From contig OX485809.1 of NCBI GenBank assembly GCA_950295325.1, positions 2,790,001 through 2,854,000 on the forward strand: a stretch of 64,000 nt of DNA, written 5' to 3'. The notes beneath the pieces were generated by a model, which saw only the letters and a program-made list of their open reading frames with translations, had not been told where the DNA came from and did not search any database. Within the stretch, counting starts at the first letter, position 1. Each line of letters opens with the position of its first letter. Positions 5,151-41,475 of this stretch are shown piece by piece. The position numbers and the translations under genes are program-made. The DNA comes from Polytrichum commune (taxonomy: Eukaryota; Streptophyta; Polytrichopsida; Polytrichales; Polytrichaceae).

Positions 5151-5839
5151 TGGGGAGTGTTATCTTGTGAGTGGTGAGGAGTGAGCAGTGAGCGATGAGT
5201 GGTAATTTGTGAGCGGTGAAGGAAACAAAATATTTGGTAATAGGATCCCTGGTATCCTATAACCGTGGCCTAAAGAAATAATTTTTTAGGGTTCAACAAT
5301 AAGAAGATTGGGGAGGACAAACAATATGAATGCTAGATTGCGAGTAGTGAGCAACGAAAAAAAACCAATATGTACACAACTCGGGGTTGCTAGTATGTAA
5401 GCATGCGAGCGTGAGCCTGTGAGCCTTCAATTTTTTCCCAAATATGATTTGTAAATCTGTTGGGGGCCTATGACTGTGGAATTACATGTAAGGGTCTATA
5501 GTTCAAATGAACAACAAATGAGAATGTTGCTATAACAATTTTATACTAAAAATGAACTAATATACATTCAATTGTTGAGATAATAATAATGTAATTGGAT
5601 ACAATGTGTAAGCAAACTCATGTTGAAAACAAATGTAGCATGTTAAAATATCTCACTATAATACACATCAATGCAAAATTTGAATACATCATAACATCAT
5701 CATAAGGATGATATTTACGAAGTCCAAAACACAAAAAAACAACAAAAGTGGATTGTAGGTATAAATCGGGTTGTAGATTTTAAATTGTTAAAGTTATTGG
5801 AAATCAAATATAAAAAAAAATCAAATCATGAATACAAAC

Positions 5840-8690
5840 TTAAATATCGTTAGACTCAGATGCATTGAGTTCAAAATAAGCACAAACTCTCGTATTGTAA
5901 TATCTACGAGGTGAAGAAGAAATTGAAAATGAAGTAGATGAATCATTAGCATAAGCTTCAGCTAAAGCCTCAGCATACACAAGGAGGCTATGAGGACTAA
6001 GAGAGGGGCTTCTCAATAATCCACAGTGCCGATAAAATGACGAGGTTTATATCGGCGCTGGATTCATCCAACTGCAAACAACAAACTATGTATTTGAATA
6101 TGTAATAAAAAATTAAAATACAAAATCTAGAATTTGCAATTGAAGTTGTTGAGAATAAAACAAGAAAAAAAAACTTACTCATATAAGTTAAGTGGTTCGG
6201 CATCTTCTATTGGAGTATCATCATCAAAGTCCATACCATCGCATGACGTATCAATTGTAAGTGTTTGAAGAGGCTTTAGTATTTCATCAAAGAGTTCGGC
6301 ATCATTTTCTAATGCTAGAATATGACGATTGAATGAATGAGCCGTGTTAATAGAAGAACTTGGATGAAGCACAATATTAATTAGGAAAATATGAACATTG
6401 AAATATGAATTTAAAAACATATAAACTAATAATTGCATACTGTAAAATACAATACATGTAGAAGTAGTCATGTCTACTACAATACCGCCTATAGGACTCA
6501 AACTATGAACAAATAACTTCATTAGAACTTCAGACTTCTCCTTTGCACCCCTCTATGACTTGCCATCTCTTTGTCTACATAATTGAGTTTCCGTAATAAT
6601 AGAGTTGAAGATAACGTCATTTGTGACTAAATCGACCTCTAAAATTAAAGGATGCATGATGATCAGAAGTTCTTGAGGTTGCCTCGCAACGGGAAATAAA
6701 AATGATCGAATCAATAACAAAGCCTTGAACTTCAAAGTTTGAAAGTCAAAATTAAATTAGAACTAAAAAATACACATCATATAAAAACAAATTCAAGTAT
6801 GAAGCAATTCAAACGAAATGCCATAATTGCTACTTATATTTTTGGACAGATTTATAGGATTTTCCAAGTGCAAGCAATTAATGATAGTTCACTCATTCTT
6901 TATCTTGAACTTATAGTTCTTGAAGAATCTTTTTACTTCTCTCTTCACCGTAGAACTGTCAAGATAAAATAAAAGGAATGTTTTATCATCATGAAAATAG
7001 GTGAGAACAAAGGCCATCAATATGTTGAGAAAACTTGGATAGTTGGCATTCAAAGCGGGAACTTGAGATGGCGGATCCGAGACACCTGGAACCTGAAGAT
7101 GATCTACATAATCCACAATAATGAGGTCCATAATAAGTTCCTTTTGTAATTGGCCATTGAAAAAAAATTATCTACCTTCATCAACCTACAAAGATAAAGT
7201 ACAAATATTACAATTCATGAATGAAGATGACAATTCAAAGCAAAGGATGAAATAACGTGATTCAATATGAGTGAAACCTTATAAAACATGGAAAAAAAAA
7301 ACTCACATTTGATAGAATAGCCACAATATCGTCATATGGTGCACGAAATGTACATGTTTGCTTCTTATTTTCGATAATCCTCATAAAAGAATCATTCTAG
7401 ATTAAATATGAAGATGTATGATTTGCAGGTAAAGAAGGCAAAATATTCATCATACCTCTAAGCTTGGAAGGCATATCGAAGATATGGGAAGGGGTTGTTT
7501 TCTGCCGCTTTGAAGTATGAAACATTGCCTCTAGATTTGAAAAAGAAGGTTCAATAACTATAAGGTTGTTGAAACTGCTTTGAATTGAAGCATTGTCATC
7601 GCTATCATGAATTAGGATGATTGGTCTTTCAGGCTTGGATTTTTTTTTGGCATCTTGGGTACATCCTCATCCATTATGATTGGAGTAACTTTAGTTGCAC
7701 CCTTGAGGGCGGGTTGAATGAAATCTTGAAGGGCAATATCAAAAGTGCGAGGTGTTTTAAGAGGACAATCCAAATACCACCAACATTTTTCAAAATGCAT
7801 AGGTTCCTAAGATTTCGTGATCCCTTCTGTGAACATGCATTCTTCACTTTCGATATCCAAATAATTAGCAAAAAAAGTGGGAGATTTGGAAATGACTTTA
7901 GCAGGAAATAAGACATATTTGAAGTACCTATAGAACACCCTTCGCATGGCCGGATTGAAATTGAGTTGCTTGTTAATATTATGGTTTTGTAAAATCCCTT
8001 ATCTACACCGAATTCATGAAAAAATACAATATCCCATAATGATATGCGCATTGCCTACACATAATAAAAAAATAATGGACAAAGGATCCATACCATCTAG
8101 AAAATAGTTGATGGGCACATGCATATCAACCACAGTAGCATCAAAAAGCTACTCGGTCTTAATAGCCAATTTCTAAATATAAATTAAATATTAGAAAATA
8201 TTAATAATTGGAAAAATATTTAAAATATTAATGAACGAAAAATAATAAAAGGATAAAAATTTATCACCTAAGCCCACCAATTAGCTTTATGAAACCACTT
8301 ATAAAACTCTATATCATTGAATTTTGATTTCGGAAACTTGAGAGCCTTACGAAGAGCATGACAATTGTTCTACCTTTCAAACCACTTAATCTTCATAGAA
8401 GTGTCCATTGCCGAAGTTGCTAACATCCAAAGTTTTTCTTGAGTCATCAAAGAATTATCATTGTGAGTTTCATAATGAGACTTCACCTTCTCTAAAAAAT
8501 TGAAATATCTCTAGGATCTGCAATGGAAAGTTGTTTCTTTAGTTCCGAATGGGAAGCTAATCTCATCCTCTCAATAATTTTGAAAACAGATTCATCAACT
8601 GTACTTGAAGTCCAATGTGCAGGACTAGGGTATTTTTCATAAAATTTCCTTAGAGCAGTAGCAGCAACATCCCCCAACTTTTGCTACACC
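5840..8690 (-). pseudogene. Unidentified multi-exon MULE accessory gene, left copy
   Basis: I do not recognise the protein. Reading leftwards, exon-like pieces occur at about 8686-8280 (containing TALRKFYEKYP, then WMLATSAMDTSMKIKWFER), 8000-7560 (AMRRVFYRYFKYVLFPA, CWWYLDCPLKTPRTFD), 7400-7310, 7110-6890, 6740-6560 (KFKALLLIRSF), 6360-6180 (RHILALENDAELFDEILKP) and 5995-5840, ending at a TAA. Each of the last pieces has a counterpart, in the same order, on the plus strand at 38570-40905. Conservation at protein level between two separated copies argues that this is a real gene. In-frame stops (for example TAG near 8363 after WFER) and frame breaks show this copy is decayed. Exon edges are approximate. 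It sits beside the left terminal repeat and diverges from the transposase. A capsid, peptidase or methylase identity was looked for and not supported. Confidence 0.55.
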
Positions 8691-10814: not shown

Positions 10815-10990
10815 TTCATGGATGTTTATCATGATTCGGCCTCTAAATCTATGAGCTCGAAACAGAAGCCATGGTTTCGGTATCAATAGGGAGGCTTCGT
10901 GAAGGTGATGAATTTGCTACAAAATTTGGATCTTCAAAAAAATGTCGCCAACGTCTATGACATTGTGGTAACACATTGCTAGTACATGAT
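10815..10990 (-). pseudogene. Duplicate C-terminal exon of the accessory gene
   Basis: The minus strand encodes SPSRSLPIDTETMASV, matching SPPRSLSIDVETMAFV on the plus strand at 40750-40800. The DNA similarity continues through the TTTAGAGGCCGAATCATGAT word at both sites. The left gene copy already has its own, more diverged terminal exon at 5995-5840. This is therefore an extra copy, perhaps from an insertion of a third, truncated element. It lies just left of an AT microsatellite at 11024-11048. Confidence 0.55.
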
Positions 10991-11404
10991 AATATAGATG
11001 TATTAATATCTATAATAATCCAACTATATATATATATATATATATATAATAAAATAAAAATTATACAATCAACTGTATGAAGCTTTCGAACAAAATAAAC
11101 AAACAAAACTTACTCACAAAATAGATTGATTTCCTTGCGATTAACAATTAGATAATCATCCGAGTCTGAAAAATTGATATTTTTGCCAATAGGTAAAGGA
11201 GATTATATAATCAAAGACTTGAAGACGGAATCAAAAATATCTTTATCATCTTTCAATGTCAAGAGGTGATGCTTCAAAGAGATAAAAAAAAATTTATCAA
11301 AAGATCAATAAATAAAAACATGTTAGTTTGTAAAGAATACATAATAAAATAATTTCAAAACAAAAAAATTGTTTTATACATGAACTAGCATTTTCATTTT
11401 CATA

Positions 11405-11580
11405 CACGTGGGATTATTGGCAGTACCGCCAATATTCTCGGGGCCCTCTTACATATTACCACACTCATACTTGAGAGGGTATTGATAGTACCGCCAATAT
11501 CCTTGGATCTTCATACGTGTTTCTACTTTCATACGCGGGGGGGGGGGGGGTTAATTGGCGGTCCCGTTAAAATCCTTTGG
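11405..11580. repeat. Palindromic minisatellite, left copy
   Basis: Three units about 65-70 bp apart carry degenerate forms of the palindrome ATTGGCGGCACCGCCAAT (near 11413, 11478 and 11553), alternating with CTTCATACGTRTTT-type spacers. The spacer of the third unit contains a run of 14 G. The same array, with more units, lies in inverted context at 33480-33870. Confidence 0.7.
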
Positions 11581-11689
11581 ACTTTCATACGTATTTGTTG
11601 TTGCATATAGCAACCCAACTAGAAGTGATTATATACCTTTGACAAATGAATAAAAATGCGGGGAAATTTTTTTAAACATCCACCGGTGG

Positions 11690-11905
11690 ATACGAGTAGT
11701 CCAAAGAGACTGATGTTTTGGTTTGCACTAACCGGGGTTCGAATATGGTTGGTTGCATTGACTGGTGCTATCCCCTAATGAGTTAGTGGTTAAGCAGGAA
11801 ATAAAATAGGTTGGATAGATATAAGGTTTTTCTACGCAAGTGTGCATAGATCATTCTTGATGATTTTTTTTGTTAAATTATCCACTTTGAACAAATTAAA
11901 GCACT
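11690..11905. repeat. MULE central block, left copy
   Basis: It matches, inverted, 33155-33360. Shared words include GGTTGGTTGCATTGACTGGTG, cut short of its full length, plus TATCCCCTAATGAG and ATCCACTTTGAAC. A TTCGAAT word inside resembles a pol III B box. The block lies between the palindromic array and the transposase and may be its upstream region or a fixed SINE. Confidence 0.6.
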
Positions 11906-12679
11906 TGATCAACCATCTAGCTGACTATTGCTCTCATCAAATTGCAACTCGAATATCATTTGCGTTATCTTAAATATGCATTATTTTCTATGAGATGCTC
12001 AAAAAATAATAAATATAAGGTCAATACTTGCGCGATAAATTTCATCTTCGGCTTCATTTTCTTCGTCTAATTCGGCTTCATATGCTTCGTAGTATTATTG
12101 TATACATCCCACCAAGCTCTACTATTGCTTTTTCACTTTTTTCGTCAAAATCATTCAAATCTATTGTCTTTTCTGTTTCTACTAAATCATCTATATATTT
12201 TTGCACTATAATATTAGATTTTTTTCTCATACAACTTGCTCGTTCTCAAACTCTCTTTGTTGTAAAGTACAATCATTTTTCGTCTCTTTCATCCTCCATT
12301 CAATTGTGTACTACTCTCATGCTAAACTACCTCTTGCATCTGTGATAGTCAATTCTAAATGTTATATAATCCACTCTCTATAATACTCACATGAAGTTTG
12401 GTGCATTCTCCTATATATTTATATTGAATTTTATCAATGTGTGGTTCTATTACATTGATTAGAATATTTATTCCAAAATTAATTGACAGTGTATAAGTTC
12501 CCTGTTATTTTTTTCATGCGGAGACTCGCTTATTGTTTTCAATTTTATTATTTGAATGTGATCACCTTCATAGTTGTTGGATATTAGGGTTTGCTCCGAA
12601 GGCCCAAAACTGCCAATACAAATAGTCTCTCATCTACATATTCCAATGTTTTTCATTTTCCAATGTCCTTTACTTCAAA

Positions 12680-14225
12680 ATGGCTACCATTAAAGCATCC
12701 AGATCATTTGTGCCCTTCACCTTACCTCTTGAGGATGATCATCATGTGAATGTCTCATCATTTGAATATGGCGTAGCTCAAACGCTCTTTTGGGAAAACT
12801 TCAACTCCGTCATGTTAGAGAATGGAGTGTCGAAAATGAATTTCAAAGGTTTCATGGCAGATAGTACTTAAGCTAATTGGAATGCGGTTAGAAAGATATA
12901 TGGTGTAGGTGACCCAAATTTGCCAATGGTGGTTCGTAAGCGTACTTGTCTTTTTCATTGGTCACAAAGTTTGGATAAGGTGACGCAAAAGTATATCAAG
13001 ACATCTTTGTAGTTTCAGCACAAACAACTATGCAAATATTATAAAGACACAAAAACAATTGATGAAGCTGAAACTAAATATCATGTCATGTGTTCATGAT
13101 GGTTGTCATCCGGAACTGCCACAGAAGAAGACATTATCGTTTTGTCTAAGTGATTGGGGTTTTGGCACTTTCGTTATAGGCAATAGGGTGGTCACATAAT
13201 TCTTGTAAATGCTTCGTCATTATGTATTTCAGATTTTATTTTTCTTTTGAATATCCATGATATATATTTACATATACCATCTATTATAATTTGTGTAATG
13301 TTTGCAGGATATGACAATGGATGAACGTGCAGAAATGCCAACGTATAATCTTGCAGAAACAGTGCACAACAAATGGCTCCAGCAGTCTGGAAACAAAATG
13401 ACTTGTCTATATGAAGCAACAGTGGACGATTTAATCCGTCCATTCATGCAAATTGCAAATTACAGATCATGGTTGAAAGGTGGTTCTATTGGTAAAGGGC
13501 CCGATTCTGCGTCCTTCAAATTGAAAGTTGTTGCCAGTTGCGGAGATCCGAAACTACTAGTAGATGCCATGAAGTCCTATCCGGGGTTGGAAGATCTCAA
13601 TACTAGGGATTGTGCTTTGGAGGGGTCTGAGTTGTTTGGATCCACCAAACGAAAGTGTGATCTGCCACCATGTATGGATTGTGACTCACATCGACCCGAT
13701 AAAGTGAATTACTCCATTCCTCGCCCTAATACTAGGGTTAGAAAGGCATGCATAGAGGAATCTTTGGTTTCTGTAGAGCATGGTGTGGCACATACCACAT
13801 CAGTGTTAGAGACTGATTGTTCTTCTTCCCATTGGCATATTGCAAGATTGCCAGCCAACTCTGCCAAAAGATGTTGGGTAATGCAAGCCAATACAGGGAC
13901 TTTGTGCAATGCCAAAGTCGGAACTGGCAAACATGGCACACCAGCTCCCACGTGCAAAGGATTGAAGAAGGAATACCGCTCCACCAACAATGTAGAGTAC
14001 AAGTTTTGATTTTGCCTTAATGACATCAAACGTTGTGTAAGTGGGAACAAGAAGAAGTATGTGCTAGACTAGCTTGTAGTTCCCAACATATGGCCCGTGA
14101 AGATAAGTACCAATCTCTCAAGGCAGGAAGTATTGGCACTCGAAGATGCTGGGTTCCAATTGCAGCAGAGGGAGGCTCTCTCTCCTCACCGTAGGCTTTC
14201 AACAATTGCAATGTTTCCAATCCCT
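12680..14225 (+). pseudogene. MULE transposase, 5' part, broken
   Basis: A first exon (about 12680-13204) reads the end of a MULE-type DDE domain: FKGFMAD, then NWNAVRKIYG, then RTCLFHWSQSLDK, the LCFWH-like region that precedes the last acidic residue in such transposases. A GT-AG intron (13205-13307) leads in frame to exon 2 (13308-14225), containing AETVHNKWLQQSGN, SHRPDKVNYS and LALEDAGFQL. In-frame stops lie at 12869 (TAA where Q or E is expected), 13009 (TAG for Q), near 13170 (TAG for W), 14007 (TGA) and near 14070 (TAG). The frame is then cut at 14225 by the CACTA element and resumes at 26206. The N-terminal zinc-finger part seen in the inverted copy (31150-31850) is missing here. The DNA upstream (12590-12670) matches the upstream region of that copy, so the gap is probably an internal deletion. 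Confidence 0.75.
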
Positions 14226-14830
14226 CACTATAAGAAAACCCTGTTTTTTGGGACGTAAAAAAAAAACGTAAGTGCGCGTTCACTTTGACATGGAAGTTCT
14301 TCTCTGGGACGTCACCTAAAATCCGTCATGTCAGACAAGACAAAAACGCGTCTTAGACATGTGAAAACATGGCGAATTTCAGCACGTTTTTATGTGACGT
14401 CACATAAAACATGGTGTTCCATAGTGTCCACGTACAGACACGTGGACGCCACCTGGATGCCACGCAAGCATGTTTTTTGCGGGCAGTGCCACGACGGCGC
14501 GTTTTTTATTTCGTCCCCTCGCTGACGTGGGGTGTCGCGTGGACCCTCTTGAAATGACGTGGAATGCGATTAAAAACTGACGTGGCATTCGCTATTGTTG
14601 ATGTGGACATTGCATTACGTGAAGATGTGTGGTGTTACTAACGTCCTCTGCGACACAAAAATGTCACATAAGACATCTTCCTCGACGGATGCATTTATTT
14701 TTTGGGTGTTTTCGGGGTGACGTCTAGTTTTCTTGGACAGCCTTTATGACAGTGGGATGTTATGTGTGACATCATATTGGGCATTACGAATTATGGGGAT
14801 GTCCTCTGTCCAAAACCATAGCTTGTTTGT
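14226..14830. repeat. CACTA left terminal and subterminal region
   Basis: After the CACTA end come repeated short words such as GGGACGT, TGACGTGG, GACGTCAC and GACACGTGG on both strands. Dense subterminal motifs of this kind are the binding sites of the TNPA-type protein in known En/Spm elements. That role is inferred here. Confidence 0.6.
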
Positions 14831-15373
14831 GAGTGATGATGTCGTTTTCAAGCTTAGCCCGCCTTGACGTGGCTGATTGCCTCAAATTCTCAAACACATT
14901 ACTGACATCAAGTTGTTTGGCTATTAGCACAACCAAATGTCAGATGCACGTTACTTATGCCATCTACGGGAACAAACACCGACATCAAGTGTTCCACCAA
15001 ACAGTCGGAACAGACACAAAGAACGCGTGGACCAAATGTAGACCAATGCTTTCCAAATTCGTAAATGCAACGTATTCATTGATACAATATGAAGCAACCA
15101 AAAGGCTGCATATACACATCAATCGCTAGTTGCCCAAAAACTTAAACATTGTGCATGATCGAGGCATCCATGTCTATATAGGCGAGTCTACTCCTCTATG
15201 ACTAAGTGGATAATTCATGAGCACTCAAATGGAGAGCCGCATCGTTATTGAGAACGTCCACTCATTTCTCCTTTTGTGTTTGTGCCTTCGTACTAGTCCC
15301 CACCTGCCCCATTCCACCGCCATTCACAAAACAACATGAATTCTATTAGTGGTCATCCGAACATGAAATGGAC

Positions 15374-18300
15374 TCACATGTGAGAAGTAACTATATGCGA
15401 GTGCTCCACTCTCCTCCTGCGATCAAGCAAGCAATGTAGGCATACAAACACTAGTTCCCTCACCTTCGCAAGATTTTGGGGAGGTTTAGGCAAACCAACC
15501 GCTTTTGGTGCACCGAGTTTGGCCATTGAGGATTTCGCTTGTGCGCTTCTAGCCACACGGCGGGGTCGGCCACCTGACTCCTCCGGTAGGGGCACCTCAT
15601 CCTGCCATAACATTCCGCATCAGTACTCGAAGGTTTCAAATGATGTCCCTTATGTTCTGCAATAATTGCAGTCTGTCAAGGCAAACGTCCAGCCTAATGT
15701 ACATGTCGACAACGCAGATGACACGACGAAGAACATGCCCGACGAGTACATGAAGGTAAAATTTTTTTGGAAACGAGGAGAGAGTTTCATGTATGTCTAA
15801 TATGGGTGGGTCTTACTTGATGTTACCTGCTCCAGAGATGCAATCTCTTCAGGCACGTCCGCATTGCCGGATATCTCGGGGTGTCCTTCCTCGACGTCCT
15901 CCATAGCTTGCACTGGCACTTCCTCGTTGGTAGGCTCTACATGGTCATCAATTGCAGGTGTCTGCGTCATTTTTTTCCCCTCTTCGAGAATGTCCTCGAT
16001 GATAGACGCAATAATGGTTTCAGAGTTGGTCTGCACTCCTTGAACGTCTGTGACGGCATCTGTCGCAGCATCCTCAGCCACGTCGCTCGGAACATGAACT
16101 GCGGACGCCAAGCGCATGTCCGCACCGCCCACGGCGTTCAAAACTGGGATGGGAGCTTGTTTCTGTGCCGCCATCACCAAGTCCTCCGTCGTTGACGTCA
16201 ATGCAGAAATATCGAGCATCTTCGCAAACGATGAAGGCTCCGTCATGCTGTCAATGTTGGCCGGGTGTTTCTGACTCTGATTCTGAAGAATCATCCGCAT
16301 CATGTCCTCCATGCGCTTGTGTGAGGCTGCCACATTCTCTCCAAGGCGTGTGACGCTGCCCTCCAAATCCGTCACTCGAGTGCGCATCGCCTCGATTTCA
16401 GAGCCATGATCGGGACGCACTCTGCGTTTTTCGTCCTGTATGCGTTGGTACTCTTTGGCAACCTCGGCGTCAACCTCCGCATCGTACGGTGCCCTGTTCT
16501 TCAACATCGTCTGCAACAAACATTAAAGTCATTGAGAAATCAAAGAAGACGTCGACACATATTGGTTTCAACAGGTGCAGGTCCCGTGACGGCCTAGGAA
16601 GTGATCGGATTAACATCCACGCACAACTCAAACCTCTAAAGTTACATTGCCAGCTCGGAAGACGTCTAAGTAAACGCTAAGGCAGACATCTGTTGTCGAC
16701 ATTGACATTGTAGGGGATATGAGCCGTCACAGATAGATAAAGAGAATTGCAACATTGGCATTTCTGTCAACATAGACATAGTTCCACTCTTACCAGACGG
16801 GACACAACCTCCCTTTCGATCGCTTTCATCTGAGCTGTGGTCGACCCTTTCCCTTTTGAGATTGACCGCATGTGCTGAGACTTCAAATGCGCAGCCTCGG
16901 TAGCGCGCATACCTACAAGTGTCTTCCAATGCTCTGCATCCACATCGGCTGGTTTACCCGCATTGTTGTCTATGAGCTGGTTTAACCTCCAGCGGGTGTT
17001 GATGAGTACCTTTGTTACAATAGGCCGCATCCACTTCTTGCACACTTTGTCACAATGCCCGCACATCTCCCAATCTGCATGCCAGACACACACGACAATG
17101 CAATCAGCAACACCTCACATGCGACCAGCGATGGATGCCCACTCTACACCCACGTGGCAAAGGTTGCAAACCAGTATGTCACCGAAAGACAAAAATTTGT
17201 CTTCATCGACGTCGCGTTGGACGTCTCCAGCGACGGGCGAGCGTTTCAGTACACATGTCCAGAAAAACACAAAGACGTCTTGTGCGGCATCTAGTCACAC
17301 ATTGTCAACATGACAGCCTAGGCTAAATACATGTCCACACTGACGTTAGCAAGAATGTCACGTGTGCCTACATAGACATGCACCCTGTTGCACATGTCCA
17401 GAAGGATGTTTGGTTGCACTTAAAATGTCAGATTCATTTTCACACCGCAAATTAGCGCGACACATGCATGCCAAAAAATTCATGTGCAAACCTTACCTGT
17501 GTATAGGCGTTTGAATAATCGCTTCCTCTTGTGCCGTGGTTGGCCTTCCCATCCCGTCGTGGGATCCAGGTCCTTTGCATACTTCTTGATGTCTCCGCAA
17601 TGGACAGCCTTCATGGCGCCAAAAGGCTGCCCTTGCGCATCCAGCTCCACACGTTTCTTCATGGCCGTGCTCCCCCCTGCCTTACGTGTTGGTAGCGGCT
17701 GTGATGTTTCAATTCCATCACTGTTCTCCTGATCGGAGTCTTCTTCAGTGCCCGAGTGGGTTGCGTATCCTCGGCTACAACAACCCAGACCACAATAGTG
17801 GAAACCCTAGTTACTTACATATGCGACTACCCATTGCGCATGACCAGCCACGTTTAGACCAGTTGCTATCCCTATGTGTCATATATATGAGAGTTCAGGA
17901 TATTTACCCATCACAAGTGAACTGGTTGTGTTTAAGAAATATGACAATTGAGGGTTGGGAGTTTAGAAGATTATACGAGAACAGATGAACTAGTTGAGTT
18001 TGAGACATAATTAACCAGTTCAGGGTCCAGAGTTTGGGAAGATTACTGGCCTCAGATGAACGGATGCAGGTTGTTGTATAACCAGTTCAGGGTTGAGCTG
18101 AGTACAGGAAGATTGGCCATCACTTATGAAACCATGCTAATACATGAACCCAGGTGAACGATCAACCCTAATGAGGGATCCAGCAAGCATTTCATAGACA
18201 TTGTACACCTCAGATAAGACTCACATACGAAGAAACACATACAAGAGTGAAATACTGCAAAATTCAGCATAAATTCAGCGACATATGAGGAAAATTCGAC

Positions 18301-19151: not shown

Positions 19152-19254
19152 CTTCTACGACGGACAGCAACACCGAAATGTCGACAGGGACACAACAGAC
19201 ACAGAGTCGACGCGGGTGAGAGCTCGCTAAGAAATGCGAAGACAGGCGTGACCC

Positions 19255-26946: not shown

Positions 26947-26955
26947 GTCAAGGTA

Positions 26956-27898: not shown

Positions 27899-27970
<72 letters not shown>

Positions 27971-28020
27971 TTATTTATATTTATATTTTACCTTTGTTCA
28001 CCTCCCGGTTAAGAAGATCA
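26956..28020. other. AT-rich spacer with (TA)n microsatellite
   Basis: A run of about 33 TA units occupies 27899-27966. The rest shows no gene, RNA or repeat that I can support. Confidence 0.7.
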
Positions 28021-28021
28021 A

Positions 28022-29215: not shown

Positions 29216-30780
29216 CAATTTTTAAACTTGTCATATACACCACGTGTCCTAGTCAACTCCATTGAGGACACATGTAGGTTGTAAATGTTTGGAAGGTCTT
29301 CCCTTGGTCCTCCTAACAACTGATTAAATTGTAGATGAGATAGTTGTCGTACTTTTCTGCATAAAATACACTCCACAATCCATCCCAAGACCCAACAATA
29401 TTTTATTTTATTTTGTAAAAGATGAAGCATTGTAATCATTAGCATCTCATCTTTCTACGCTCACATTCAGGTATTGTAACTTTTCATTTCAAGAGGGCGT
29501 TGGAAATCAATAGCATGTCGTAAAAAACCGGGCAGTAAAAGGGAAAAATCAAGGAGTTGAAGTTTAAAATCAACTCATACTACACAAGAATGGAGCAAGC
29601 CAAATCTTCGGCGCTCGTGAAACACCCTATGTGAATGCCATGGAGTAAACCAAAAATCTCCAAAAAATTGTATCTTACCTATCGCCTTTGCGCCACGCCT
29701 CACCGCTTCATCGCTTCATGCTTCACCAACGCAAAATCTCCTACCCGAATGCTTCACCGCCTTTGCGCCACTGTGTTTGCTCAAAACCTAAGCAAGCCCA
29801 AGGACCGTTGAGAAGTCGCAACATTCCTTCTCCCAAAAAAATCCACAACTTTTCTCTCCATACTAACGCATTTCATTCAAATTTGGACAACATTTACACA
29901 ATATTCATCCAAGTAGTCAAACCAAAAAAAAAATTCTATTGATCCTACTACACACATTTGGGGGGATCCAATATCTATGACCTTAGTTTTTTACTACTGA
30001 TTACTAAAACAAAGGAATTATTTACCACCCTATTTCACATATAATCATGTAGGGACATATTTCCAATGCTATGGTAGATCTAATAAAATTATGAATTTCA
30101 CCCTCAACAAATTAAATTGACCCTATTTTTTTTTATCTCACATGGTTTCTAAAATTCTAATAGTCACCTCCCCAAGTGTGCTTGAACCCCCTATAGTATA
30201 GTGACATGAGAAACAAGTGATGTATCTTAATTTCCAACTTTCAATTACATGTTGTTGGAAATGACATCCAATGTTCAAAGAATGTAGGTAATTTTGTAGA
30301 GAAAGAGTAGTTTTGTGGTGGATTGCTTAGGGCACACATGTTTTAAGTGTCATTTTAGAATGACAAAGACAATTTCAAATTGTGAGTCACAAAAATTATA
30401 ACCTCAATGTTAGTGAGGGTTTTGTAATATTTTTGACTTCCAAGTTAATTACATGTTTTTTTTGACGGTTTCACTTTGATAATGAAACCCCAGTCAATTG
30501 CTTATTTACTCAATGGAAGTGAACATATAAATTGGATTTTGGCCCTTGAAGGTGAAGTGCACTCAATATGGGATTTGTGAGTAAGTGGCCTTCAAGAATG
30601 CAAGGGCAATGGTTTTTTCGAAATCGGGCGGGCGGGCAGCAGTTTTCGGTTGGGTCCAGAAAATTCAGATTTTCTGGCCGGGCGGCTGCCCCAGCCCGAC
30701 TCTGACAGTCCGAAAAGTTCGTGGGGGGGTATTTAACGTCCCCAGATATAAAATTACAACAATTTGGAAAGGTTAAAGCA
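29216..30780. other. Sparse DNA with one GC-rich hairpin
   Basis: Most of the stretch is AT-rich with no supported feature. At about 30630-30700 a GC-rich patch folds back. An outer GGGCAGC/GCTGCCC pair encloses CCAGAAAAT/ATTTTCTGG (30656-30677). It may be the end of a small foldback element. Confidence 0.4.
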
Positions 30781-31099
30781 TGGAAATTATCCTAGACAAC
30801 CTTCAAGGAAGAACATGCCAAGTGGTGTCCTATATCGTTTGATGGAAATTTTAAAAGGTAGTCTGATAGGAATTTTTTATTCACTGCTATAACTATTGCA
30901 AAGTTTCTGGCAGTAGGTATTTTCATGACCTCATTGACAATGCACTAATAAGCCATGTTAAGTGACACACGACATGTACCATTTGATGTTCATGAACACC
31001 AAGATGTATACAAGTTTTAGACATTTCAAGGGATGTGAAATGGACATTTATTATGCGAGAATGACACAATGCAATACACACGGGTGTGGAATAACACAC

Positions 31100-31860
31100 C
31101 TTACATTACAATCTCGATTTTTTTGGGACGACATCTCCCACAAAAATGGGATAGAAGTCGATTCAATTCATTCGGTGCAGTTGCGAACACCTTCATTGCG
31201 ATACACATAATCACAATGTTTGTTTATGCACTGCAAATGACTGGCACAAGATGAATACCTAAAAGAAAGTCCAAAATCATTTTGGATATTAGTTGTTTTC
31301 ATTATACACCAAGGATGCTTGTCGCACATCTTATCCATGTCATCCATGAAATGATCATACATATTAGGAACATCCATATTTATTGGAGGTAAAATAAATA
31401 AAAATCACTATTAAATGTTGGTGGCAAATATTTCACATCACCTACATTTATATTGTTAAAATCAATTGTAGTAAGATTGGATTTAGATCTTCTTCAAGAC
31501 TCTGCCAATTTTAATGCATCAACAATATTAAAACCTGAAGATGATGAACAAGAATGAAGAGGTGGATGTTGAAACGAAGATTCATAGTTAGCCAATTTTG
31601 TATATGGCGGACTTTAAGGGGGTTTATCAACATTCATAAAGACCAAACCTAGATTGGAAATTTTAGTTCTACAAGGAAAATACGATGTAGCAGAAAGATC
31701 AATAACAAGACAAACATTATCATCCGAATCCAACAACATAAGAATGTCATCGTCACTTGGTTTTATTTTTACAGTAGTCACACTAGGTTCATTGATAGTA
31801 GATGCGCCAAACTCGTTTGTCAACATAACACTGGATGATTGCAAGTGTGAATAAAAAAAC
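31100..31860 (-). pseudogene. MULE transposase N-terminal fragment
   Basis: The minus strand reads an acidic, serine-rich leader (IKPSDDDILMLLDSDDN, 31800-31700) and then, after a stop near 31612 and others near 31490, MYDHFMDDMDKMCDKHPW and FRYSSCASHLQCINKHCDYV (31360-31230). The cysteine spacing and the HPW block resemble the DNA-binding N-terminal zinc-finger region of MULE transposases. Traces of the following GTCRVSL-type region continue to about 30900 with stops and frame changes. The matching upstream DNA at 32100-32215 ties it to copy 1, which lacks this N-terminal part. Confidence 0.5.
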
Positions 31861-32219
31861 CTATAATTCTAAACGATCATGGACCCAAAATATAAACATA
31901 ACCATCTTCACACATGTTTTTTTGAATAAAATTTGTTTCCAAGATATCACTATTTACGGAATACATCTTTTGCTCCACGTACATGAATCCAATCAGGAGA
32001 TTGAACCTCAAACTAAACAAATTCTTAAAAACTTTCATATGATGATCATCCTCATGAAATAAAATGACAAGCACAAATAATCTAGATGCTTTAATGGGTT
32101 TAGGGTTTAGGTTATTTGGATGTAAGGAAAAAAATGAGAGACATTGGAATGTGTGAATGAGACACTATTTGTATTGGCAATTTGGGACCTTACGCAACAA
32201 ACCCTAACTGACAAAAAGA

Positions 32220-33150
32220 ATAGGAAACAACCAAAATATTTAAAATCTATAAAAGTGTTTACTTTCATAAAATAAAATACAAAGCAATAAGAGAGTCTCT
32301 GTGCGAAAAAAATGAAAAAATAACTATAATTTTTTTTAAATAAGTGGAGAGAATTTACGAACGCTAACTCTAATCCTAATCCTAATCCTATCCCTATCAA
32401 ATTTAATTCTACAAGCCTCCCTAATCTTTTGAGTTTGATAATTAAGTTATTGCTTGTAACTAGGAATTGGATTGTATATCACCAAAATAACAAAGAAAAT
32501 GGACGCTGTCAAAATATGTTGAAATAAATACTATAATCAATATAATAAACCACATGTTGATAAGATTCAATTCAAATGTGTAGGAGCATGCATCAAACTT
32601 CATGTGAGTGTTAAAGAGAGTGTGTTATATAATGCTTAGATTTTATCATCATAGATGCAAAAGACAAATTATCATGAGACTGGTACATAATTGAGTAGAA
32701 GAAGTAAAATGTATGGAGTTGTGTTCATTTTTTCATATATTGTATTTTACAGCAAAGAAAATTCGAGAACAAACGAATAGTATGGGAAAAAAAATTCCAC
32801 ATTGTAGTGCAGAATTATATAAAGGATTTAGCAGAAACAAAAGTATATATAGATTTGATTGATTTGGACAAAGAAAATGAGGAGGCAACATAATATTTTG
32901 ATGGAGATCTATCCAACAACATTGCGGATCAAATTGAAATTTAAGAAAATGATGAAAAAAAATAAAAATGAATACAACACAACATATGAAAAAAATGAAC
33001 ACAATTCCATGCATGAAAATAAAAGAGATGAAGTGAGAGAAAAAAATTATTGCATAACTATTGATCTTATATTTCTTATCTTTCAAGCGCCACTACCTTC
33101 GACATACAAAATAGGAAAAATTTATTGAGTGCAATAGTTAGCCAGATGGA
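32220..33150. other. AT-rich MULE interior
   Basis: No gene, RNA or repeat supported. Long frames here are low-complexity products of A/T runs. Confidence 0.5.
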
Positions 33151-33154
33151 TAAG

Positions 33155-33360
33155 CAAGCGACTTAGTTAGTTCAAAGTGGATGATTTCACTAATAAGTAA
33201 TTAAAAAGGATTTACGCACACATGTATGTGAAAACCTTCTATGTATTCATTCTACTTTATTTATAATTTAATCACAAGCTCATTAGGGGATAACACCAGT
33301 CAATGCAACCAACCGATTCGAATCTGGGTTGGTGCAGACCGAAATATTAGTCTTTGTTTA
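33155..33360. repeat. MULE central block, right copy
   Basis: It is the inverted counterpart of 11690-11905 and shares TCAAAGTGGAT, CTCATTAGGGGATA and CACCAGTCAATGCAACCAAC. The minus strand has GATTCGAATCGG (B-box-like), and the plus strand has TAGCCAGATGG (A-box-like) near 33138. Confidence 0.6.
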
Positions 33361-33479
33361 TTACTCGCATTCACAAGTGGATGTCTTGAAATTTTTTGTC
33401 ACACTTATATTCACTTGTTTAAAATTTATAATCACTTCTAGCTGGGCTGCTATAAACAATGAAAAATACATAAAAGAGC

Positions 33480-33870
33480 GACAAGGATATTGGCGGCACC
33501 GCCAATAAACCCCGTATACAAAACTTGTAGTACTTATGAAAGCTCGAAGGGTATCGGCAGCACCGCCAATACCATCCAGGTACAAAATTTGAAATACGCA
33601 TGAAAATTCCAAAGGCATTTGCGGCACCGCCAATATCCTCTGGATAGGAAATTCATAATACGTATGAAAGCGCCAGGGATATTGACGGCACCGCCAATAC
33701 TATTCAAATATGAAACTCGAAGACTTATGAGAGCCCTAAGGACATTGGCGGCACCAAAAATATTCCCAGAATATAAAAGTAAGAAACTTGAAGGGTATGA
33801 GAGTATTCAAGTACAAACAAAATTTGTTTATAAGAAGACCAGGGCTATTGGCGGCACTGTTAATATCATT
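33480..33870. repeat. Palindromic ATTGGCGG-CCGCCAAT minisatellite, right copy
   Basis: Units of 62-64 bp start near 33486, 33548, 33612, 33674 and 33738, with another near 33842. Each centres on a version of ATTGGCGGCACCGCCAAT. The first is perfect and the later ones are progressively degenerate. Spacers carry ACTTATGARAGCYC-type words. Two further degenerate copies lie at 34338 and 34440. Confidence 0.85.
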
Positions 33871-34329
33871 AGTACAAATAACCGTCATTCAAATAATCTC
33901 GTCATCCAAATACGGTTCTTTATCTAATAAGATTCATTCATTAAAAATTTAGATATAAAGGGTAAAAAATCTTAAGTTTATATTCTTTTTGGTTACTGAA
34001 CCTTAAGGTGGAGCGACAAACCGAAGAAATGTAGTCATAGAGAATAATATGTGTCGTTAGTTTTTGGAAATTTGGGCGTAATAATAATATGAGGTAAATA
34101 TTTTGTGTGTATATATTAGTTGTATTCTATCAAAACATATGTAAATGTGTTATGTATAAGCTTATGTGGCTATAATTGATAAGAAAATTATGTGATTGTG
34201 ATTCATATAAGTATACGTGGTTGCGTTCTATATAGGCATATACGATTGTGTTTGAAGATATTGACGGAATATGTGACTGTAATCTGTATAAGTATATATG
34301 ATTGTATTCAATATAGATATATGTGATTG

Positions 34330-34465
34330 TATTTGAGGATATTGGCGGTGCCACCAATACCCTCGTGAGAATCAAATATTGAAGTAAAAAAAAGTTTGAT
34401 AGCATAGCGAAGCACCAACAATAATCTTCAAACAGTCTGAAGAGATTGGCGGCACTACAAATACT
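34330..34465. repeat. Outlying palindromic units
   Basis: GATATTGGCGGTGCCACCAA (34337) and AGATTGGCGGCACTACAAAT (34439) are related to the main array. They are separated from it by AT-rich DNA with repeated TATATGATTGTR words. Confidence 0.6.
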
Positions 34466-37401
34466 CTAGAGAATCCAAAACCCTTAAACTCCATATTAAG
34501 CATATATGTGTGTGTGAGAGTGTGTGTGTGTCTTTAGGTTTTAGTCCTAGATTGGTAGATTTGGATTTTTGAAGATAAATTTTTAAACTTACAAATTTTT
34601 TTGGATGAAATTGGAAAAAAATAAGTGCGTATATTTAGATTATGTCAACATACGTGATTTATTATAGGATTTTAAATTTAAATTTAAATTTTTAGACATT
34701 TTCCAAAGTCAATTTATTTTGTGAGATCATGAATGTATAATCTAATGTAGACATTCGATATATTATAGAATATATATTTTTGGAATACCTCTTTAAGTTA
34801 GATAATTTTAAAGGTCCATAGAAAATATAGATTTTGATCCAAAAATATGAAATAAATTGGATCAGATTTATTTTGTTTAAATCTACTACTTGTTTAGATA
34901 ATGTCTTTTCATGTGAATTGATCTTCTATTGTTAAAAAAATTTGAACTTTTATAGGGAATTTTTATTATTATTTTAATTGAATAAATGAGTTGACGGATT
35001 CGTACTTTATAAGTTATTACTGCAGATTGAAACTAGTGATATCTCAAAGCATATGACATTTGATAGCAAACACCAAAATGATTTATTTGAATTACGTTGA
35101 TGTAATTTCTACTCATGTAAGAACGCATGCTATGTTGAATGATCATTCATTTTATTCCAACTCAGTAATTGAGAATCTGCAGTTTTAACCTCTTTCAAAG
35201 TTGAGGTTTTTAATTTATTTATGTCATTTATTCTTAATGCCTTTGGTTCGATTAACTTTGATGTTATATGTTTTGAGGTAAGAACATGAAATTTTTCATG
35301 GATATAGATCTAGAATTGTAATATTTTATCTTTTAGTAGTGAACAATTATATAAAAATTGACAATGTTTTTTCAGAATTTATAGAGTTTTAAAGTTGACA
35401 CTGGAAAAATGCAAGTGCAAAATTTGATGAACATTTGAAGGAAGAAGATATGCTCAACAAATTTGTGGGTAAGATGTTCTAGGTTCGGGAATGAAATCAT
35501 AGTTTAGAAATGTGAAGGTCTATTATTGATGAGGTTAATTTTGGAGAGGCAAATTGATAGATTCCAGTTGATTCTATTTTGCTAAATTCATGCTCCGATA
35601 TTGTTGTGCTACTCATGGAATATATGACCTCAACATATTGGTATTTTTTTACGGCTATTTTTTTAATTTGTCAAATGTTTATTTTATTTTATATTTTTAT
35701 CATATATTTTGCATTTAATTTCTTATTAGGTGTCTTATTCAATTTATATTTATTTTTTCAGTCATGATGAACGTTTACATATGAAGACCAATCTTATTCA
35801 TGAGTTGTATCATGTACAAGCTAATGGAAGTTTTTCTATTGAATATTTCATAAATTTATTAATACCTAACCAATACAACAAATGCATCACGAAAAAAATT
35901 GCAACATGGTACATGCTTACATTGAATTTTTTATTTTTTTATTTGTATTATATCAGTTTCATACCAAAATAAAATTTTATGACTTTCTTATCTTGTATCA
36001 TATTTTTTTGTTCATCTAATGTTTTTTTTGGTTCATTATAATATTGTTGATGTAAGAGATTTGGCCAAGAAAATTTAATTTGAGCTCACTTTAGAGTATG
36101 AGAGGTCCTCTCAAGAAATTATGGAATTTTGTTACACAAAGTTTCATTTTGGAGTCATGTATGAATATCTTGCTCAAGTATGTTGTTGATTAATTTTTTG
36201 TCATATTGTAATTCTCTCTCTCTCTCCCGCTTTGCTCTAGATTTTGCCTTTGAATTAAAAAGTAATATTACTGACAATCTAATATGAACATTCCAATAGG
36301 GCTGAGACACCTAAGGGAATCATCACCATAGTCAGATGGTTGAAACTAACCATGGGTTAAGTTACCATGGTAAAAAACAGTTACCATACTCCACGTTTTA
36401 GGGTTTCCGTGACCTAAAACAACCTCTTTGCTTGACCACACCAATACTTAAGCCTCTCTTTCTCCCATGTGAAAACTCTTTTACATGCGTGAAGGACGTG
36501 AATGTGAGAGCAAGGTTGGAGGGAAGGTGAAAAAACTGACATTGGGTGAATTAGAGATTGTCACTATCAAGTTACACAACATGGCAAAAGAGCAGGTTTG
36601 TATACTCATTGATTTGTAATGAGTATTGTCTTTGCAAAGCATCAATGGACTTGACAGGTGAGGTTAATGTGTGACATGGATAGCAACTGAGCTTAGCTGA
36701 AGACACCTGACACACGCCTTTCTAACACACATTTTGTTTGTTTGGGTTGGCACGGGTGCAGGTGAGGCTAGCTCTTCACATTTTCTACACCAACAATAGT
36801 ACATTGTTCAAGTTTGAATACTCTTTCACCTTATTATATGATAAGTATGAAAGCTTATTTACTGCTTTGAAATAGTATTTTGATTAACACACAAACACTA
36901 CAAAGTAGTTGAGATAGTATGGAAACATATATGTAAGCTTACATCTTACATACTCAACTTATTACTTGATGGTAACATTGATAACATTAGTAACATTAGT
37001 TACATTAGTTACATTGACTACCAAGCATAATGCATTGCATAGTTAGACTCTATTATAGACTATGTTACTATATACAAAGTCATGTGATGAGCATATCATT
37101 ACATTCTGACCACTTATACCTCACAGCTAGGGTTTCAAAATGATTTGAGATGATTTGAGTTGAAGGAAGCATGATGGTGAGGATACATGTTCCTCCTTGA
37201 GAATGCAAGATATTCCATGTTATACAAAACTTAGCAACACAAGCATAGTTACATTGATAAGTACTATGACTTGATAAGAAAACAAATTTGTATTGAATGA
37301 AAATCCCACCCACCCACCCTTGCTTTATTTTGATGAAGAATAGAAAGGAAAGGGCCTCTGAAAAGAGGAAGATCAAGCTTTGAAAAAAGCTCTGAAAAAT
37401 A

Positions 37402-37523
<122 letters not shown>

Positions 37524-37839
37524 AACAATTGGCTTAAGAAGCTCTTGGTCATTAAGATTCCTCAATTTCCGAATTAAACATCATCATCAAGATTGCCTTT
37601 AATGCAATGTGAGCCCAATATTGTGCCCACATGTGGTTGTAATCTCTAATTCATTAAAATTGTAGGCTTTGTATTTGCATTTGAATATTCAAAAAGATAA
37701 AAAGTGTGATGTTTTTAAGTTTAGGCTTAAGTTGAGTTAGAAGGCTAGTAGGAAGTTAATCAAGGCTTGAAGCTTACAAGAATTGATTTTTGGAATTAGT
37801 TAAATGCAGTTGAGCTACAAGGACCAGCATTGGCTTGAA

Positions 37840-38500
37840 TCTCGGAGAGGAGGGAGAGCATGACGCCGAACAGAGCTGAGCGGAAACTTTGCAAAATTTA
37901 CCCAGGAGCTCCTGCCCCGGTGCAAGGGAGGGAAATGCGGAGCAACTGAAGTATAGAATGACCGAGGAAGGGAATTTGGTGCAGCAAAGCAGGGAGCTTT
38001 CCGAAGTTGTTTGGTGGTCTACAGATGTTGGTGTGTATTTGGGGAAATGAGAGAAACTTTAAGGGCACAGTCTGACGCAAGAGATGCAGCAGGAGGACTA
38101 GAGGTGAGCTCATACAAAAGGGATTGGTTGACAAAACGGATTGAGATCATTTGTATGAGGAAGCGGAAGAAGGTGCAGATGTCGAACTCCAGCTCTCAAA
38201 AATGGGTGAGTGAAGGTGGCAGTAGTTTGGAGTGAGCCGGGCTAGTAGGGCAAACAATGGCAGTGCAGTTTCGGCACTGTATTGAGTCGCATTCGGGGAG
38301 GAGGCCTCAGGTCTTGCAGAAAATGTTGTACTAATTGGAGGAAACACATGTGTGTTCTGTTGAAGTAAGGAAGTGTGGCCTCGGCATGATTGAAGATTTG
38401 GCATCGTGGGAGCGACTGAGAAGGAGTCGCCAGGGTATGAGTGATGATGAACTCACGCGGACTACGATGCATAAGGGTGGGGGTTTATGGCTGACATGCA
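37840..38500 (+). other. GC-rich, exon-like island inside the MULE
   Basis: Composition jumps from AT-rich to balanced and codon-like for about 650 bases, then falls back sharply at a T-run near 38508. Frame fragments with plausible protein character occur (MTPNRAERKLCKIYPGAPAP from 37861; SYKRDWLTKRIEIICMRKRK from 38110; MIEDLASWERLRRSRQGMS from 38383), but no frame stays open throughout and no family is recognised. Its position within an intron-like gap of the accessory gene suggests a captured host-gene fragment (Pack-MULE style) or a later insertion. Confidence 0.35.
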
Positions 38501-41344
38501 ACGAAACTTTTTTTTATCACTTTTTTATCACTTTTAATTATATTGAATCTTGGAAGGCTACTTACTAGCAAACGATATTTTTCAAATTGTTCAAATTTTA
38601 TGATGACATTATAAAAAACAAGACTTTTGATAAGCAACATGGAGGATTTGAAGCTATGAGACAGGTTATTTACAAGTATATTTGATATTTGTGTTCTATA
38701 TATTTGATATTTAACACTCATGTTTTATTTTTATTTTTGGTAACTTGATTATAATTTTTTGTTTTTATAGATACTTTACGCATGTGTTACTCCCTGCCAA
38801 TGCTTTGGGCAAGGGACCAACTTTTTTTTTTATTGTTTCAAGGAACTTCAATTGGAGAATTTCATGTTCATTCATGAAATATGCATAGATTGGAATGAGG
38901 TTCATTGGTATGAATATGGATGGTATTTGAATTGTCTTATGAGTAAAATTCCGCATTCCGAATTAGAATTGCGTAATCATCTTAAGCGTGCATTTGGTTT
39001 ACCTATAGTGGAAGACTTACCACAAAGAGCACCCACAAAATGCAAGAGGAAAAATATATTATTCAAGTGCCTGAATAATCTAAAGACAATACCATTTTTG
39101 GTTATGAACCTTCTAGCAAAAAGCTCAAGGTTTTATATTTGTAACTCCATTATATGTCAACCATGCTTATTTTTACCATTTTAGAGCCTTTCACTTATTT
39201 AAGAATGAAGACTAAAGCTTCTCAAACTACATAATGTAGTTTTGATAAAAACTAGTTTGAGCTCATTTTGAATGACAATTTTTTGAACCCATTGAATATT
39301 AAAGAGAAAATAAAGTCTAGACCTCAATCTTTTCAGGACATCAATGCATTTCTTACTAAGGTATATTTTTTACCAATTCTTTCTAACTGCATGTTGAATT
39401 ATCAATGCAACTTTGTTTTGCATTTTTTTGCTTAATGGTATACTAAACTTCCATTGGTTGTATTTATGTTATTCAAAGTTGGTACACATTGCACATTCCA
39501 CTTTCAGGGTGTTTAGACTGCAATGCTGGCAAATGATTTGGTTATAAAAGATATTCCGGAGGGATTTCTTATGTTTGGTATTTCAATACCTCCTTCATCA
39601 ACACCTTCTTGGAATGCAAAACCTGATATATTTTTTTAATTTTTTTTAATTTTTATGTAATATCTTTATAACAATGATGTTTTGTTGATATTTCATCCCA
39701 AAAATCCAAAGCGGATGAAATAATTGTCTCCATATTTTTTCAATTATAATCTCAAGGTTGGTCATGAACCTTGCACTTGTGTGAACCCACTTCGTTTAGC
39801 CAATCCTTGTAATCCAAACAAAACGGTTAGTCTCATAATTCATTTTCATTATTATTTTTCATTTTAATGAATCATGTTGTTTGTGTACATTATAATTTGA
39901 TTGTTTTGTTATTTTACTTATTTTACATTTGTTGTGTAGACCATCAAGTTCATAGCGCTCTTACTTGTTCGCTCTTTAGATAATAATATTGGATTGAAAC
40001 GCATGCCTTTGCCTTTTCAAAGGAATATTAACAAAGACCTTTCGGAAAATAGTATAGATTTGGATGATAATGTTTTAAACAACTTCACAGAGGCTACTTT
40101 TCAACTGATGAGAGATAATGATATCACACCTTGGAAAGACCCACGAGAAATACATCCATTGTGTTTCCAAGTTTGAATCGATGCTTTCTCAAAACCCGAA
40201 GGCATTGTTCAAACCGCAATGTTGCCACACATATAAATCATTTTGTTTTTGCTTTACATTTCTTCTTAATATGTCTTCTTTACAAACTAACATGCTCTCA
40301 TTGGCTGTTCTCTTGATAATTGTTTATTATCTCTTTGATAAGACGCTCCATATATGCATGCCGTGCTTTGAAGCGTCATCTCTTGCCATTGGAAGGTGAT
40401 ACAAATGTTTTTGATTTCGTCTTGAAGCTTTGATTCTACAATCTCCTTTACTTATTGGTAAGGATACCAATTTTGAAGAGTTAGATGATTCTTTAATTGT
40501 TCATCCCGAGGCCATCAATCTATTTTATGAATAAGTTTTGTTTATTTATCTTGTTCGAAAGCTTCATATGATTGATTGTATAATTTTTATTTGAACTATA
40601 TTGTACATGAATTTTTTTGTATTATTATGGATACATCAATAATTATTAACACATGTATGTTGTCATGTACTAACAATGTGATACCACAATGGCATTAACA
40701 TTGGCGACCTTTTTTTGAATATTGAAGATTTATAGCAAGTCCGTCACCTCCACGAAGCCTTTCTATCGATGTTGAGACCATGGCTTTTGTTCTTGCTGCT
40801 CAATCTTACCCTTCTTCTACCCATAGCAAAGCTAGATATTATGATCGTCAAGTTTTGGATTTCATAAATTTAGAGGCCGAATCATGATTAACATCCATCA
40901 CTTCAAGTTATAGTGTGGCTAGTTTTTTGTTAGCACGTGTTCAACTGTCATAATCATTATTGGTATTAATTCTTTAATGTACATTTACTTATGATGTACC
41001 TTAAAGAACTTACATATGTTTTGTGTCCAACTCTATCTTTTTTGCACTTTCTATATTTGTGTTGTATAATTGACCTATCACAAAATTGAGTATCATTTTG
41101 CAACATGTTTTCTTTCATTGTTTCATGTGTGCATATTATGAATGTTAATGATCATCATTATCATGAGCATCATTCACTTCAACTTTGTTCATTCCACTGT
41201 CATACGACATGCAATACAACTATGAAAATTTATATATGATAAATATATATAGCCATAGTTGTATACATATTGGTTTTTTTTGTTGCTCACTGTTCACAAT
41301 CTACCATTCGTGTTGTTTGTCCTTCTCAATCTTCTTATTATTGA

Positions 41345-41475
41345 ACCCTCAAAATTATATTTTTTAGGCCACGGTTATAGGATAATAGTGGTCGTCCTAT
41401 TACCAAATATTTTGCTTTCTTCACCACTCACAATTTACCGCTCACTACTCACCGCTCACAAGATAGCACTCCCCA
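41345..41475. repeat. MULE copy 2, right terminal inverted repeat
   Basis: Read on the minus strand from 41475 it begins TGGGGAGTGCTATCTTGTGA and continues with GCGGTGAG repeats, TTTGGTAATAGGA and TATCCTATAACCGTGGCCTA. It matches 5151-5275 with few differences. The 9 bases after it (GGTTGTAGG) had no partner that I could find. Confidence 0.8.

Follow-up and report, generated by a model that had tools for sequence, protein, structure and literature searches.

A 64,000-nucleotide stretch of DNA from the moss Polytrichum commune (positions 2,790,001 to 2,854,000 of contig OX485809.1, assembly GCA_950295325.1; hereafter the window) carries two diverged elements that resemble Mutator-like elements (MULEs) and lie in inverted orientation. 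The left element, E1, is complete and occupies positions 5152-26946 on the forward strand (21.8 kb, including a nested CACTA element), with termini GGGGAGTG...GCTTCCCTC and flanking repeats. Its target-site duplications, GTCAAGGTAT (5142-5151) and GTCAAGGTAC (26947-26956), agree at nine of ten bases, and these nine bases occur at only these two places on the given strand of the 64 kb. The right element, R, lies on the reverse strand at 32031-41474, and is truncated near 32031; over 3 kb it shares 80% identity with L023, a locus elsewhere in the genome. E1 and R, both of them dead, are independent members of different subfamilies, called type 1 and type 2 respectively: E1 has stops or frameshifts in both its transposase gene and its accessory gene, while R combines a decayed accessory gene with a transposase gene that breaks off past its start.

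An earlier sequence-only reading of this DNA had described two inverted copies of one element whose blocks occur in mirror order. Comparison of the window with itself recovers that order in four inverted block pairs, namely the terminal repeats (5151-5381 and 41475-41257, 82% identity), 10818-11378 and 40898-40232 (74%, in two pieces), 11390-12511 and 33659-32484 (66%), and 12507-12753 and 32313-32031 (68%). When the right half was reversed without complementing, as a control, the best match had an E-value of about 5e-11 and fell in a simple-repeat stretch. The two inverted elements therefore stand as described, but they are not copies of one element. Nor do the accessory exons form mirror blocks, as had been proposed. 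They are not collinear, and the left block at 10818-11378 derives from the 3′ exon of a type-2 accessory gene; this relic and one of the type-2 central region, both inside E1 and 80-83% identical to L023, explain the mismatch between the blocks and the exons. A single palindromic composite of 36 kb is ruled out, since E1 is closed on its inner side by a terminus and a target duplication of its own, and the inverted placement is ordinary clustering.

E1 is bounded by an outer terminal repeat at 5152-5381 (forward strand) and an inner one at 26853-26946 (reverse strand), which ends at the duplication; positions 26853-26923 match 5168-5244 at 70% over 77 columns. The type-1 accessory gene within E1 (copy A) spans 6178-8683 on the reverse strand. 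Its middle exon (8298-8683; 70-73% to an L016 exon by tblastn) has a frameshift near 8495 and one stop, and the next exons (7403-7956; 73-76% to L011) hold an in-frame stop. An exon at 7021-7167 carries the motif-IV position as DYVDH, and the segment at 6178-6690 holds methyltransferase motifs X, I and II, with one in-frame TAG and what is probably a short in-frame intron. Copy B, the type-2 relic on the reverse strand at 10818-11378, is 80% identical to L023 and lies between the type-1 accessory gene and the transposase, followed by two decayed type-2 palindromes at 11414-11500.

The transposase gene of E1 runs on the forward strand. Its 5′ part (12680-14225), with in-frame stops, includes CLFHW and the NLAETVHNKW region, and its 3′ part (26203-26651) includes a SWIM-like C-x-C...C-x-H pattern at 26448-26522. 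Between the two lies the nested CACTA element (14226-26202, forward strand; 11,977 bp), which has CCT on either side. This En/Spm-type insertion contains open reading frames (ORFs) at 20589-24935 that are tnp2-like, as judged by eye. A recurrent in-frame TAG in transposase matches was considered as a readthrough codon and rejected; it is most likely part of a splice acceptor before the second exon.

The R element retains an outer terminal repeat (41257-41474, reverse strand) and an accessory gene on the forward strand, made up of a heavily decayed N-terminal exon with a DGNHR motif (35156-35611), a middle exon (38763-39118), an exon with motif IV as DIPEG (39496-39633) and a frameshifted 3′ exon with the motif II region (40320-40531). 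A palindrome array, GTATTGGCGGnnCCGCCAATAC, occupies 33487-34360, with a period of about 64 bp in its first part. The transposase gene is represented by its start (32031-32313, reverse strand), where homology ends, and the rest of it was not found anywhere in the window. A search of 26900-33500 for the inner duplication gave only 9-mers with one mismatch to the outer 10-bp flank, none with an adjoining terminus.

Related copies are abundant in the host genome assembly (407.8 Mb in 64 contigs). The first 125 bp of the E1 terminal repeat gave 385 candidates, and all 40 that were scored matched, E1 itself included. Fourteen stretches, selected for their resemblance to the left terminal repeat and hence no random sample, comprise 11 short elements, two stretches with a full type-1 accessory gene and one type-2 element. 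The two full type-1 stretches represent one place, as contig C53 duplicates part of C2, and with the C53 duplicate removed 10 of 12 elements are short. Nine of the ten short elements whose ends were tested (two of the ten being the same duplicated place) have a 10-bp duplication outside termini that read GGGGAG... and ...TTCCCTC, the exception being L021. Because complete two-gene elements also exist, we read the short elements as probable deletion derivatives.

Complete two-gene copies range from 11.7 to 12.5 kb. One of them, at C1:63980010-63991736 (L048 and L047; 11.7 kb), is flanked on both sides by CTGCCTACAC, a perfect 10-bp duplication, and its ends share 87% identity in a 62-bp alignment. 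Its transposase exons, of 742 and 455 amino acids, are open, and its accessory exons lie on the opposite strand. Among five type-1 two-gene elements fetched with their ends, two (12,395 and 12,501 bp) have perfect 10-bp duplications and a third (12,278 bp) has one matching at nine of ten bases; of the others, one has an ambiguous nine-of-ten match without the usual end and one has no duplication. The target duplication is thus 10 bp, not the 9 bp previously supposed. Two further arrangements were seen in the family. Loci L010-L013 (C2:19221600-19240400 and C53) form another inverted pair of family members, the C53 copy probably being an assembly duplicate, and in L014 (1-101 and 7009-7662) a short element has inserted into another member of the family, in the 3′ region of its transposase, an instance of self-nesting.

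The accessory gene and the transposase gene are neighbours far more often than random placement gives. A search with the methylase-like exon produced 174 matches, with the best 150 of 934 candidates scored, and 150 of these matches merged into 120 accessory loci; the corresponding transposase search listed the best 150 of 2155 candidates. A listed transposase match lies no more than 20 kb away from at least 48 of the 120 loci; 1000 random placements, for which the length of contig C4 was a guess, averaged 1.7 such loci and never exceeded 7. The figure of 48 is a lower bound, given the share of candidates used in each search. The two genes are head to head in 41 of the 48 pairs, 36 of them spaced 8.7-11.8 kb apart, and take other orientations in seven. 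The proposals that the accessory gene belongs regularly to this family, and that both genes run outwards from a common intergenic centre, are therefore upheld genome-wide. Of the terminal repeats scored, 40 in all, a methylase exon lies up to 5 kb inward of 12 and a transposase match within 20 kb of 9, with both near 6; this count used 34 accessory positions and 105 of the 150 transposase positions.

Sequence comparisons relate the C-terminal part of the accessory protein to DNA methylases. The open 577-amino-acid exon of L046 matches Pfam family PF01555 (N6_N4_Mtase) with 29.9 bits (cut-off 26.7, E = 6.7e-7), through residues 471-524 and the last quarter of the profile; L023 (E = 0.037) and L047 (E = 0.071) fall below the cut-off. 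Searched with a profile built from four families, the PDB gives the adenine-specific methyltransferase DpnA (5hek, E = 4.2e-6; 5hfj, E = 5.3e-6), in an alignment that covers most of the domain, and CcrM in third place (E = 0.4); L023 as a single query reaches 9e-4 to the same two DpnA entries, which we take to be M1.HpyAVI. The left copy in the window, read through its stops, has CcrM (NCBIfam, E = 0.14) and a phage DNA methyltransferase (PHROGs, E = 0.25) as its sole matches. Searches of the accessory exons against phages and viral contigs gave one phage DNA methyltransferase (E = 0.6) and nothing else.

The motif order is permuted, with motif IV (assigned by eye) first, then X and I, as in the beta arrangement, and motif I, for S-adenosylmethionine (AdoMet), is DxTxxTG-like. 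We surveyed motif IV in 20 type-1 loci, three of which gave no match. The 17 distinct loci that remain read DYPDG (14), DYLDG (1), DYPYG (1, in L038) and DYVDH (1, the window copy), and the other families have VIPEG or DIPEG, DIPDG, and QFPDG. In the N-terminal exon, a DGNHR..AW motif is invariant in four aligned sequences. A ParB/sulfiredoxin-like domain was considered for this exon from a likeness seen by eye, and was set aside when Pfam, the PDB and phages yielded none. Judged from these motifs and matches, the C-terminal part of the protein resembles a beta-class (permuted) DNA amino-methyltransferase with a good AdoMet motif and an unusual catalytic motif. We regard the anatomy of the elements and this methylase resemblance, taken jointly, as very probably correct.

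Four families retain the accessory gene, with amino-acid identities of 36-46% between them. For two exons compared between families, the proportion of nonsynonymous differences (pN) is 0.40-0.45 and that of synonymous differences (pS) is 0.63-0.85, which is saturated; these values fit long-term constraint.

The intergenic palindromes form the other distinctive component. The palindromic array reported by the sequence-only reading is confirmed in the window, where TATTGGCGGnnCCGCCAATA with up to three mismatches has eight matches against 0.02 expected. In three subfamilies the intergenic interval contains 22-bp palindromes (10-bp arms, 2-bp centre) whose sequence is particular to the subfamily: GGGTGGCCGTTAACGGCCACCC in type 1, GTATTGGCGGtgCCGCCAATAC in type 2, and CCCTGTGCGTTAACGCACAGGG together with GTTTGGGTCGnnCGACCCAAAC in the C1 family, where GTTTGGGTCGnnCGACCCAAAC also occurs in a transposase intron. 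Palindrome totals per element, which include unrelated palindromes, compare with the mean of five shuffles as follows: 29 versus 3.4 in the C1 element, 17 versus 3.4 in L023, 11 versus 1.6 in E1, 7 versus 2.6 in R, 1 versus 3.4 in L046, and 7, 8 and 6 versus 2.4, 2.6 and 1.2 in three short elements.

A genome-wide census of the type-1 palindrome with at most one mismatch gave 305 forward and 300 reverse matches, which are largely the same sites because the sequence is palindromic, and none for a reversed control. The 64 exact sites that were listed fall into 34 clusters, 23 of them within 13 kb of family matches and 11 not, in a comparison that used 40 of 40 terminal-repeat, 42 accessory and 12 of 150 transposase positions. 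In all eight clusters with both genes among the positions used, the palindromes lie between them, and no family palindromes were found in terminal repeats. Two tandem arrays were also recorded near family members. In L047 (5433-6254), 10.5 copies of a 78-bp unit carry a GTTTGGGTCG..CGACCCAAAC palindrome, and in L046 (281-2726), 34 copies of a 72-bp unit, open in several frames, adjoin the accessory gene.

The combination of divergently arranged genes, palindrome arrays in the upstream region common to both, a site that changes while its architecture stays fixed, and a methylase-like protein with an altered catalytic motif points best to a DNA-binding protein that the element itself encodes and that would act, sequence-specifically, on the element's own promoter. 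The accessory protein, probably as a dimer, would recognise the palindromes of its own subfamily in the common upstream region, and once bound it might keep the element expressed or mark it as self, in the manner of the VANC protein of VANDAL elements. It could act by DNA methylation or by binding alone, and the form of the catalytic motif favours binding. By analogy with VANC, we put this palindrome-reading function forward tentatively. For the whole, a MULE-like lineage with a divergent transposase gene, a methylase-like accessory gene, subfamily-specific palindromes and a self-recognising factor is the explanation towards which we lean, with modest confidence.

Several observations weigh against this explanation. 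Pfam PF10551, the MULE domain, matches neither the window proteins nor the open 742- and 455-amino-acid transposase exons, and for the transposase exons Pfam SWIM stays below its cut-off (E = 0.076). The accessory copies in the window have no Pfam match and only a chance match to an integrin in the PDB, L046 by itself finds no methylase in the PDB with a significant E-value, and the DGNHR domain has no match in the libraries tried, which include Pfam, the PDB and phages. The canonical motif IV, [DNS]PP[YFW], is absent from all but possibly one copy, its aromatic residue missing from 16 of 17 type-1 loci and from the three other families, which makes enzyme activity doubtful; we do not class the protein as an active enzyme. 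Among the 120 accessory loci, 72 have no transposase within 20 kb among the matches listed. Fifteen recent type-1 copies have a pN/pS of 0.93 in exons, compared with 0.46 when the intron is read as codons (77 of 105 pairs, the others dropped because intron markers were unmatched in the first member), with no constraint visible, as fits decay after insertion. Full-length copies without the accessory gene had been named as evidence that would count against its being a regular component, and this expectation is borne out in part: 11 of the 14 fetched stretches are short elements that all lack the same stretch, corresponding to about 5820-8067 of E1 and comprising the methylase half, and have multiplied without it, yet they keep the N-terminal exon. 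Finally, L046 has no palindrome array in 8 kb, and the 78-bp-unit array, with its GTTTGGG palindrome, is found immediately beyond the complete C1 element.

Because the Pfam MULE domain is unmatched, assignment to this superfamily rests on termini, duplication length and the SWIM-like finger, and the 742- and 455-amino-acid exons would be equally unmatched if the elements were transposons of another DDE superfamily with 10-bp duplications. According to the sections of PMC6446971 consulted, MULEs are marked by duplications of 8-11 bp, long terminal repeats and a zinc finger that is often of the SWIM type. The duplication is 10 bp in nine of the ten short elements tested, in three of the five full type-1 elements and in the C1 element, with nine of ten bases matching in E1, and E1 and the C1 element have long terminal inverted repeats; together with the C-x-C...C-x-H pattern, this combination makes another superfamily improbable. 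The CLFHW that follows the second acidic motif presumably represents the MULE C2H signature, which points the same way. It is comparably improbable that the accessory gene does nothing for the element and is a captured passenger, whose pairing with the transposase would reflect common descent of one composite. Such a history would suit the numerous fetched short copies without a methylase half and the recent copies without visible constraint, but not the retention of the gene across four families until synonymous differences were saturated, nor the long open accessory exons of L046 and L047.

A working DNA N6-adenine or N4-cytosine methyltransferase, marking palindromes or termini in the style of restriction-modification systems and using DxP[DE]G as a functional variant of motif IV, appears unlikely, if less so than a passenger. 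The family match, an AdoMet motif kept in several families, palindromic sites suited to hemimethylation and the DYPYG of L038 speak for it, against the absence of the canonical motif from all copies, possibly bar one. In the sections of PMC8885841 consulted, moreover, the bdelloid rotifer methyltransferase N4CMT is inactive when APPA replaces its SPPY. The palindromes themselves could instead bind the transposase or a host factor, with a role in replication, chromatin or as a source of small interfering RNAs, and not the accessory protein. Subterminal repeats are often transposase sites, and one array lies in a transposase intron and one outside an element. The palindromes of this family occur mainly in the interval between accessory and transposase genes, with none found in the terminal repeats, and we consider this alternative possible yet doubtful.

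The remainder of the window holds other repeats and coding remnants. ORFs at 42307-44208 (reverse strand) resemble Pogo/Tigger transposases by eye and adjoin a 99-bp tandem array at 44234-44723, and 60928-63701 contains Copia-like gag-pol frames, also recognised by eye, with long open stretches. A tandem array with 95- and 75-bp units lies at 2573-3266. Exon-like ORFs at 48500-59000 look by eye like a plant FAD-dependent oxidoreductase; one flavoprotein-like ORF piece from this region had no match in the PDB. An Rfam search of the window at gathering thresholds gave no match.

MuDR of maize (mudrA/mudrB) likewise has long terminal repeats and a second gene beside the transposase gene. Its two genes are convergent, whereas those of the present family are mostly head to head; the comparison with mudrB is by description only. 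VANDAL elements of Arabidopsis, with genes VANA, VANB and VANC, are MULE-like, have an accessory gene, and carry fast-diverging, element-specific tandem repeats in non-coding DNA; as described in the sections of PMC10398659 consulted, VANC binds short motifs in these repeats and induces loss of silencing marks. The moss family differs in that its accessory protein is methylase-like and its repeats are 22-bp palindromes, VANC being compared by description only.

Other parallels concern the methylase domain. DpnA (5hek and 5hfj) and CcrM, the best PDB sequence matches of the accessory protein (CcrM at E = 0.4 only), are bacterial enzymes with a canonical motif IV. Like the accessory protein, N4CMT (PF01555) represents a permuted, bacterial-type amino-methyltransferase domain in a eukaryote, but it is a host gene with a chromodomain and SPPY, whereas the domain here is transposon-borne and mostly has DxP[DE]G (PMC8885841, sections consulted). 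DIRS and Ty3/Gypsy elements with DNA methylase domains are also methylase-carrying eukaryotic mobile elements, but they are retrotransposons with domains of the Dam or C5 types, and land plants are said to have no methylase-bearing transposons (PMC6338049, sections consulted).

MULEs with extra genes are already known. Extra ORFs of various kinds are reported in PMC6446971, whose main text, as far as consulted, contains neither 'methyltransferase' nor 'methylase'. We found no report of a MULE with a methylase-like accessory gene in the literature searched, a body of partly consulted sources that left most subscription papers, preprints and repeat databases outside, and within it the joining of a methylase-like partner gene with subfamily palindromes is a new combination. 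A bacterial-type amino-methyltransferase may have been acquired by a plant MULE lineage and remodelled for self-recognition, with catalysis reduced or lost and DNA specificity diverging together with the 22-bp palindrome arrays in what would be the element's own bidirectional promoter. This would make it an independent, second anti-silencing system like that of VANC, and one found in land plants, from which methylase-bearing transposons are said to be missing; we offer this scenario as a speculative one. With its high copy number, conserved methylase-like partner and subfamily palindromes, the lineage offers a new system in which self-recognition encoded by an element, and its escape from silencing, can be tested, and it is a source of diverged pairs of protein and site.

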